From contig DASPIL010000076.1 in the NCBI GenBank assembly GCA_035629175.1, forward strand, positions 62,001 to 126,000: DNA of 64,000 nt. The letters run 5' to 3'. The notes beneath the pieces are model-generated. The model searched no databases. It worked only from the letters and a program-made list of their open reading frames with translations, and was not told the origin of the DNA. Shown here in pieces: positions 4,273 through 6,378 of this stretch (positions within the stretch are counted from its first letter, which is position 1; each line of letters begins with the position of its first letter). The stretch is from Verrucomicrobiia bacterium (GTDB taxonomy: Bacteria > Verrucomicrobiota > Verrucomicrobiia > Limisphaerales > DASXHY01). Position numbers and translations under genes: made by a program.

Positions 4273-5142
4273 ATGCGCGTGTTGATTATTGGCTGCGGGT
4301 ACACGGGAATTGCGCTCGGACGCGAACTGGCTCAACGGGATCATTCTGTCTGCGGGGTGCGACGAAGCCGGTCGTCGGAAAAGGAACTCACGGACAATGG
4401 AATCCAACCGCTGTTCTGTGATGCAACGCAGTTGGCGGATTTGCAAACGCTTCCCCGGAAATGGGACTGGGTGGTGAATTGCATTGGAGCCGAACGCGGC
4501 ACAAGCGAGGAGTATCGCCGCACATATTTGGAAAGCACACGCAATCTCCTTTCCTGGCTGGAGGCCGCGCCTCCGAAACGTTTCGTTTATACCAGCAGCA
4601 CAAGTGTATACGGCCAGGAGGATGGCTCGTGGGTCAGCGAGACCGACCCAGCCGAGCCTGTATCTGAAGCCGGCCGAATCCTCATCGAAGCCGAAGACCT
4701 GCTCCGGAGGGCGTGGAATGCACGATTTTTTCCGGCGATCGTGCTGCGGCTTTCCGGGATCTATGGACCCGGCCGTGGATATTGGTTGAAGCAGTATCTC
4801 GCGGGCGAACCTTTCGATGAATCGTCAGACCGTTTCCTCAACATGGTTCATCTCACCGATGTGGTGGGCGCAATCATCGCAACGCTCGAGCGAGGCGTGG
4901 ATGGGTCGACGGTGAATGTTTCCGATGACGAACCGGCCACGCAGCGAACGGTGTTCAGGTGGTTATCAGAAACATTGCCTCAGCCGCCGCAAAAGGCAGG
5001 CGTGCTAACCGGTCGTCGGCGCGCTGCCACAAACAAGCGGGTTTCGAATCGCAAACTTAAGGAGGAACTGCGCTATCCGTTGAAGTACGCTTCGTTCCGG
5101 GAAGGCTTCTCGGCCGAACTGCGGCGTCTTGGCAAGCTCTAG
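4273..5142 (+). CDS. NAD(P)-dependent epimerase/dehydratase-like SDR protein
   Basis: A 289-residue cytoplasmic extended-SDR protein of the YeeZ-like group. The N-terminus MRVLIIGCGYTGIALGREL carries the Rossmann GxxGxxG loop. The phrase FVYTSSTSVYGQ gives the Ser-Thr-Ser and Tyr region of the active site, followed by RLSGIYGPGRGYWL and the NMVHLTDVVGAI segment typical of NAD-dependent epimerases. The usual YxxxK spacing is not obvious: VYGQEDGSWV follows the tyrosine and no lysine sits at +4. Sugar-nucleotide epimerase activity is therefore doubtful. The start at 4273 leaves an 83-base divergent promoter region with the U32 gene. The substrate is unknown. Confidence 0.75.
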   Translation: MRVLIIGCGYTGIALGRELAQRDHSVCGVRRSRSSEKELTDNGIQPLFCDATQLADLQTLPRKWDWVVNCIGAERGTSEEYRRTYLESTRNLLSWLEAAPPKRFVYTSSTSVYGQEDGSWVSETDPAEPVSEAGRILIEAEDLLRRAWNARFFPAIVLRLSGIYGPGRGYWLKQYLAGEPFDESSDRFLNMVHLTDVVGAIIATLERGVDGSTVNVSDDEPATQRTVFRWLSETLPQPPQKAGVLTGRRRAATNKRVSNRKLKEELRYPLKYASFREGFSAELRRLGKL

Positions 5143-5161: not shown

Positions 5162-5189
5162 TTGACGAGGGTGTTCCTGCTGTTACTCT
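5162..5189 (+). promoter_or_regulatory. Possible sigma-70 promoter for the aroF leader
   Basis: TTGACG at 5162-5167 matches the -35 consensus in five of six positions. It is followed after 16 bases by TACTCT at 5184-5189, a poor -10 box. If used, transcription would start near 5196, only about four bases before the leader-peptide ATG at 5200. The leader would then be translated from a leaderless or nearly leaderless mRNA. There is no Shine-Dalgarno sequence in the bases just before 5200, which agrees with this reading but does not prove it. Confidence 0.3.
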
Positions 5190-5199
5190 GGCCCCCGTC

Positions 5200-5280
5200 A
5201 TGCATCGCAGCTTTTTCAGCAGCGGTCGATTCGCCTGGTATTACTTTACCGGGCTGCCTGCCTGCCTGCGATTGCGTTGA
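5200..5280 (+). CDS. Aromatic-rich attenuation leader peptide of aroF
   Basis: A 26-codon reading frame (ATG 5200, TGA 5278-5280) between the SDR gene and the DAHP synthase gene. It encodes Phe at codons 5, 6, 11 and 16, Trp at 13 and Tyr at 14 and 15, so codons 11-16 read F-A-W-Y-Y-F (5230-5247). Seven of 26 residues are aromatic, the end products of the pathway whose first enzyme is encoded next. It is followed by an intrinsic terminator at 5301-5327. This is the layout of leader-peptide attenuators such as trpL and pheL. Expression as a peptide is inferred. No Shine-Dalgarno is seen before the ATG. Confidence 0.75.
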   Translation: MHRSFFSSGRFAWYYFTGLPACLRLR

Positions 5281-5327
5281 ACGTTCATTGAATTAACCCG
5301 CCGCAGGTCCCCACCTGCGGTTTTTTT
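5265..5327 (+). terminator. Attenuator: intrinsic terminator with alternative antiterminator pairing
   Basis: CCGCAGGT (5301-5308) and ACCTGCGG (5313-5320) form a perfect 8-bp stem with a CCCC loop, followed by seven T (5321-5327), a textbook intrinsic terminator 32 bases before the aroF ATG at 5359. CCTGCG at 5265-5270, inside codons 22-24 of the leader peptide, can pair instead with CGCAGG at 5302-5307 and would break the terminator stem. A ribosome stalled at the Trp-Tyr-Tyr-Phe codons (5236-5247) would leave 5265-5270 free; one reaching the stop codon would cover it. An upstream competing pair, GCAGC (5219-5223) with GCTGC (5253-5257), is also possible. Confidence 0.8.
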
Positions 5328-5358
5328 GTGGAGACCTGCAGCCAGCAAGAAAGAATGT

Positions 5359-6378
5359 ATGATCATTGTTCTCAAACCAGGGTTGACGCGGAAGCAGGAA
5401 ACCACCGTTCTCGCCGAAATCCGCAAACGCGGCTACCGGCCTCACGTGATGCGCGGCATCGCGCGCACCGTCGTGGGAGCCATCGGCGATGAATTGAAAC
5501 AGGGATCGCTCGAGACGCTGGCGTCCGTCTTTCCACAGTTCGTGGAGAGCGTGATGCCGGTTCAAAAGCGGTACAAGCTGGTGAGCCGCGAAGCGCATCC
5601 GACGGATTCGACGGTGGCGGTGCGCGACCAGATCATTGGCGGAAAGAAGTTCCAGGTCATGGCAGGCCCCTGCTCCGTGGAGAACGAACAGCAGCTCCTG
5701 ACGACCGCGGAAGCCGTCAAGGCTGCGGGCGCAACGGTCCTGCGCGGCGGTGCGTTCAAGCCGCGCACCTCGCCTTATGAATTCCAGGGCTTGGGAGAAA
5801 AGGGCCTGAAACTCCTTGCCAAGGCGCGGCGCGTGACGGGGTTGCCGGTGATCACCGAACTGTTGTCCGAGGCCCACGCCGAAATGGTTGCTGAATACAC
5901 GGACATCATTCAGATCGGGGCGCGCAACGCCCAAAACTTCCAATTGCTCATCGCCGCAGCGCGAACGGGCAAGCCGGTGCTCCTGAAGCGGGGTTTGTCA
6001 ATGAAGGTCGAGGAATGGCTCCTCGCGGGCGAATACATTCTCGCCAATGAGAATAGCAATCTCATGTTCTGCGAACGCGGCATTCGTACGTTCGAGACCT
6101 ACACGCGCAATACTTTGGACCTGTCGATGATTCCCATCATCAAAAAGGAGAGCCATTGCCCGATCGTGATCGATCCCAGCCAGGGCGCCGGCCGCGCAGA
6201 TCTGGTCGTTGCCATGTGCAAGGGTGCCGTTGCGATGGGAGCGGATGCGTTGCTCATTGAGGTGCATCCCAACCCGGCGGAGGCCTGGAGCGATGGCGCC
6301 CAGCAGGTATCCCTCGAACGGTTCAAAACGCTGATGGAGGAGCTGCGGCCCTTTATTGCCGCAGCTGGAAGGGACTGA
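5359..6378 (+). CDS. aroF: 3-deoxy-7-phosphoheptulonate (DAHP) synthase, class I-beta
   Basis: Condenses phosphoenolpyruvate and erythrose 4-phosphate, the first step of the shikimate pathway to Phe, Tyr and Trp. The 339-residue product starts with a ferredoxin-like regulatory domain (about residues 1-75, MIIVLKPGLT), as in the Thermotoga-type enzyme, followed by the catalytic barrel. Diagnostic motifs are MAGPCSVEN, RGGAFKPRTSPYEFQG, KPVLLKRG and DPSQGAGRADLV. The ATG at 5359 was chosen because it begins the regulatory domain exactly; an extra 11 in-frame codons upstream would run into the terminator. Expression is probably controlled by the leader-peptide attenuator just upstream. The regulatory domain suggests feedback inhibition by an aromatic amino acid as well. 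Confidence 0.95.
   Translation: MIIVLKPGLTRKQETTVLAEIRKRGYRPHVMRGIARTVVGAIGDELKQGSLETLASVFPQFVESVMPVQKRYKLVSREAHPTDSTVAVRDQIIGGKKFQVMAGPCSVENEQQLLTTAEAVKAAGATVLRGGAFKPRTSPYEFQGLGEKGLKLLAKARRVTGLPVITELLSEAHAEMVAEYTDIIQIGARNAQNFQLLIAAARTGKPVLLKRGLSMKVEEWLLAGEYILANENSNLMFCERGIRTFETYTRNTLDLSMIPIIKKESHCPIVIDPSQGAGRADLVVAMCKGAVAMGADALLIEVHPNPAEAWSDGAQQVSLERFKTLMEELRPFIAAAGRD

Follow-up and report, generated by a model that had tools for sequence, protein, structure and literature searches.

In Corynebacterium glutamicum, the DAHP synthase gene aroF has a leader upstream, aroR, with the codon run Phe-Tyr-Phe (PMC11802643; Neshat et al. 2014 cited therein), a leader also detected in PMC4046766, and its transcription rises under Phe limitation, independently of Tyr (PMC11802643). 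Morbach 2000, a reference of PMC4046766, announces in its title a leader peptide for ilvBNC that lacks a ribosome binding site. In Geobacteraceae, the conserved RNA element Gmet_R0069 (= GSUR082) lies upstream of aroG-2 and has been proposed to take part, maybe, in regulation; the accessible part of that paper gives no leader peptide for it (PMC2700814). As for the terminator survey of PMC2965389, it does not mention DAHP synthase, and it leaves nearly all attenuators of some phyla unassigned. No described case of a verrucomicrobial attenuator of this kind was found in the openly searchable literature, and an earlier sequence-only reading of the locus presented here had likewise known of none.

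The window is a 64,000-nt stretch of a Verrucomicrobiia bacterium (order Limisphaerales; contig DASPIL010000076.1, positions 62,001 to 126,000 of the forward strand). It carries aroF at 5359..6378 (+), with its ATG at 5359; matches to PF00793 and to the N-terminal ferredoxin-like regulatory domain PF18152 bear out the assignment of its product as a class I-beta DAHP synthase. Upstream, an SDR-family gene on the same strand (4273-5142) ends 57 nt before a short leader ORF, MHRSFFSSGRFAWYYFTGLPACLRLR, which, read base by base, runs over 26 codons from ATG to TGA at 5200-5280 (+). Its regulatory codons, F5 F6 ... F11 A12 W13 Y14 Y15 F16, occupy 5212..5247 (+), and dinucleotide-shuffled versions of such regions yield a 7-codon window with five aromatics in about 0.4% of cases. 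Between the leader and aroF, CCGCAGGT (5301-5308), a CCCC loop and ACCTGCGG (5313-5320) form a hairpin without mismatches, ahead of seven T (5321-5327); its stem reaches 9 bp if the pair G5300-U5321 is counted. In addition, CCTGCG at 5265-5270 is exactly complementary to CGCAGG at 5302-5307, to which a G-U pair (5264-5308) could add a seventh. The sequence-only reading had described the frame with F-A-W-Y-Y-F at codons 11-16 and two more Phe, the 8-bp stem with seven T and the six-base alternative pairing, all of which proved exact; a promoter before the leader and a 1:2 protector hairpin, both described below, were absent from it. The locus thus combines the elements of a trp-type attenuator, namely an enriched leader ORF, an intrinsic terminator, a 2:3 antiterminator past the stall codons and a 1:2 protector, and we hold it very probable that aroF is controlled by ribosome-mediated transcription attenuation of this type.

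Within the order, aroF orthologues (69-85% identity) were found in 116 genomes, and 68 upstream regions were read. A short Phe/Trp/Tyr-rich frame is present in 56 of these 68 regions, for instance MNSSRFYFTSSFAGWFYFRPAGWRMRLR, MNRSFYRNYWFWFGRYFDRKACA and MTRSNQRFFEGWWFGYFSRH (M also stands for alternative start codons), and nearly all 56 leaders are then followed by a CCGCAGG..CCTGCGG-T(n) terminator. Every one of the 56 leaders has Phe; Trp is found in 53 and Tyr in 52, and the full set in 50, with codon totals of 208 F, 96 Y and 82 W. Aromatic codons make up 26% of the frame, whereas the two remaining forward frames reach 7% and 9% and those of the opposite strand 1-6%, these composition figures being inflated by the choice of leader loci partly for their aromatic content. 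The comparisons with shuffles and control genes are unaffected by this choice: an unbiased scan finds at least four aromatics in the top 7-codon window of 72% of the loci vs. 3% of dinucleotide shuffles, and none of 57 regions upstream of trpE or pheA in 28 relatives of the same order has an aromatic leader. Among the aligned aromatic codons, 362 of 529 cells are kept, synonymous or swapped among F/Y/W, and 167 are non-aromatic. Third codon positions show a mild excess (594 vs. 473 and 461), which is not the main evidence, since it is expected where RNA pairing and coding overlap. The sequence-only reading had named as fatal to its proposal either aromatic codons changing at random between relatives or homologous upstream regions devoid of both frame and terminator; neither pattern was seen, and with frame, terminator and antiterminator conserved across the order, its attenuator reading is supported.

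In about 12 orthologues the leader was lost or never present. Two of the loci read (L028 and L030) keep the promoter and the terminator, with a short frame lacking the aromatic cluster that runs through the terminator; they may be remnants of an attenuator, or else follow another logic.

Concerning the RNA, 97.6% of the cells from 50 relatives show region 3 (the terminator 5' arm and target of region 2; 5301..5308, +) paired with region 4, and among these relatives the terminator changes on both sides at three pairs. Region 4, with the U7 tract, spans 5313..5327 (+). Region 2 (5264..5280, +) comprises the (G)CCTGCG antiterminator strand at 5264-5270 and the 3' strand of the 1:2 hairpin at 5266-5280, its partner being region 1 at 5198..5210 (+), which thus pairs with the end of the leader. 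Over the 56 loci, the 2:3 pairing is better than in shuffles (mean z -1.39, Stouffer z -10.4), as is that of the first 30 nt of the leader with region 2 (Stouffer z -10.4), vs. no pairing for a control segment 30-60 nt before the leader (Stouffer +1.5); Stouffer values treat related loci as independent, so that shared ancestry leads to an overstated significance. Taken alone, the 2:3 pairing of the window is weak (z -0.77, p 0.20), and the case for it therefore rests on conservation. The start of region 2 is usually 6-20 nt past the end of the aromatic cluster. At two loci (L057 and L058) the antiterminator element sits on or straddles the leader stop codon, outside the reading frame, and is still kept, hence as RNA and not for its Leu-Arg codons; at another (L064) both strands have changed together, TTCCTGTG pairing with CGCAGGAA.

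The RNA fold called for by the sequence-only reading gives each of the three hairpins under the matching ribosome position: 1:2 forms on ribosome-free RNA, the terminator when a ribosome occupies the stop codon, and 2:3 when the ribosome is stalled and arm 4 has yet to be transcribed. As soon as arm 4 exists, the terminator of the window beats 2:3 at equilibrium, and the attenuator model consequently depends on the order of folding, 2:3 having to form first for read-through. The terminator 5' arm and loop (5303-5313) are also complementary to 5328-5340 (GTGGAGACCTGC), directly after the T tract (-23 kcal/mol). This complementarity is conserved among relatives (Stouffer z -6.8, again with related loci counted as independent), and the segment is transcribed too late for antiterminator action.

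Before the leader, a -35 hexamer TTGACG (5162..5167, +) and an extended -10 element, TGTTACTCT (TGn-TAnnnT; 5181..5189, +), form a promoter that is conserved in relatives: TTGAC, a spacer of 15-18 nt (mostly 16) and TAnnnT, often with TGn, stand 6-11 nt before the leader start at 43 of the 56 loci vs. 0.02% of shuffles. In the window, 10 nt separate the -10 element from the leader start codon. RNA polymerase usually starts about 7 nt after the -10 element, and with a promoter this close the leader mRNA is probably leaderless or near-leaderless. The C. glutamicum attenuators examined in the Neshat study are reportedly leaderless transcripts. None of the 56 leaders is preceded by a Shine-Dalgarno-like motif, which is not telling in itself, because 50 of the 56 aroF genes also lack one. 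Downstream, the gap between the T tract and aroF measures 31 nt in the window (median of 32 nt in relatives), which is too short for an internal promoter; any aroF transcript must therefore cross the terminator. At one locus (L054, on the same contig as L076), the same promoter stands directly before aroF, leader and terminator being deleted. This is the arrangement expected if the leader promoter is the aroF promoter.

The proposed sequence of events is as follows. RNA polymerase would start at, or a few bases from, the leader start codon, so that a 70S ribosome would begin at the mRNA 5' end without a Shine-Dalgarno site. With Phe-, Tyr- and Trp-tRNAs charged, the ribosome would reach the stop codon and cover region 2, leaving the 3:4 terminator to form and transcription to stop before aroF; if no ribosome were loaded, the 1:2 pairing would likewise let the terminator form. 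Should an aromatic tRNA run short, the ribosome would stall in the aromatic run and cover region 1, and region 2 would then pair with region 3 while region 4 is still untranscribed, resulting in read-through into aroF. The codon content of the window leader suggests that all three of Phe, Tyr and Trp may be sensed.

A more trivial explanation would be that the hairpin merely ends the SDR-family gene, the aromatic frame being fortuitous and aroF having its own promoter. The upstream gene is indeed on the same strand and close by, and CCGCAGG..CCTGCGG also serves as an ordinary terminator after another gene of the genome (a second copy, on contig C43, considered as a candidate and rejected, follows a small ferredoxin-like frame with no leader). 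However, the short distance from T tract to aroF, a conserved promoter that precedes the leader instead of lying downstream of the terminator, and an aromatic frame that is conserved and frame-specific in 56 loci and missing at trpE/pheA make this explanation highly improbable. We give no more credit to a translation-control or metabolite-binding element (riboswitch, T-box) working with no ribosome stalling. The RNA is structured (energy z -2.85), as such an element would be, but the window and 14 related loci gave no Rfam family match at gathering score, two tRNAs apart, and nothing relevant at E<=10, and what is conserved is the reading-frame content and the 1:2/2:3/3:4 switch, with no aptamer-like core.

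With ribosome-mediated attenuation retained as the preferred reading, the attenuator might still sense a single aromatic amino acid, most likely Phe, the Trp and Tyr codons being tolerated. Phe is the most abundant aromatic and the one found in every leader, and the response of C. glutamicum aroR to Phe and not to Tyr (PMC11802643) calls for caution about tri-aromatic sensing here. All three aromatics nevertheless occur together in 50 of the 56 leaders, Trp, a single-codon amino acid that is usually scarce, is found in 53, and F/Y/W exchanges take place within the aligned cluster. Sensing of one amino acid therefore seems unlikely, with a real chance of being correct.

The same genome encodes a second DAHP synthase, of class I-alpha (L272, contig C107), before which no aromatic leader was found; no class II DAHP synthase was found in this genome. 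Among 28 relatives, some hold a single class I type and others both, so that for some members of the order the attenuated enzyme may be the sole entry point.

Beyond this order, an aromatic leader stands before the class I-beta DAHP synthase gene in a few other Verrucomicrobiia (L089 and L207-L210). Most other orders of the class have the enzyme without an aromatic leader, L207-L210 being the exceptions, and the element is therefore not class-wide. Such leaders were also found in Geobacter and other Desulfuromonadia (e.g. FYFWFGFYFRPSARVEL), Rokubacteria (WFGFGYFYFAEVRP), NC10, Bryobacter-type Acidobacteria and Oscillibacter, a Firmicute, their sequences being unrelated to those of the order of the window. 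At L091-L101 (Geobacter and related Desulfuromonadia), a FYFWFGFYF leader is accompanied by alternative pairings. These are exact between CGTCTGCCC and GGGCAGACG at four Geobacter-type loci (L092, L096, L097 and L100), as they are between GGTCCGCCC and GGGCGGACC at two loci of Rokubacteria (L109 and L114) and between CGAGTGGG and CCCACTCG at L150. That independent lineages arrive at the same switch using different sequences speaks for the attenuator reading. The automatic 2:3 test over 22 loci outside the order gave a Stouffer z of -5.6, with related loci treated as independent; several of the 22 have no 2:3 signal, either because the scan took a second, more distal hairpin or because the pairing is absent. 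We would put equal weight for and against a broader proposal: that in at least six phyla an unrecognised set of attenuators on class I-beta DAHP synthases integrates shortages of the three aromatic tRNAs in a single decision at shikimate entry, with ribosomes starting at the mRNA 5' end in several lineages, and replaces separate trp and phe branch attenuators.

The finding is real and the mechanism proposed for it is a textbook one; its place, its breadth, its codon mix and its apparent leaderless start are new to us. It places classical attenuation in Verrucomicrobiota, gives an annotation rule ready for use in a sizeable group of uncultured bacteria, and provides a test case for attenuation on leaderless mRNA, with ribosome loading independent of Shine-Dalgarno sites. 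If all three amino acids are truly sensed, it would be a natural tri-aromatic sensor at pathway entry. It also offers a possible explanation for the unexplained RNA element before Geobacter aroG-2.

That element, Gmet_R0069, likewise lies before a Thermotoga-type DAHP synthase gene, where the Geobacter-type loci of the present analysis have both an aromatic leader and alternative pairings; gene type and place, rather than coordinates, make it probable that the two are the same. With trpL, pheL and hisL of Enterobacteria, the window attenuator shares the 1:2, 2:3 and 3:4 hairpins, codons for pathway products and an intrinsic terminator; it differs from them in acting on the common entry enzyme and not on a branch, in a leader that apparently starts without a 5' UTR, and in having no Rfam leader match. 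Its closest relative is the aroR-aroF attenuator of C. glutamicum, where an aromatic leader also stands before a DAHP synthase gene and ribosome-mediated transcription attenuation also acts at shikimate entry. That system belongs to Actinobacteria and has Phe-Tyr-Phe, with no Trp mentioned, whereas the present one is found in Verrucomicrobiota, combines Trp, Tyr and Phe, and, unlike aroR, precedes a Thermotoga-type class I-beta DAHP synthase.
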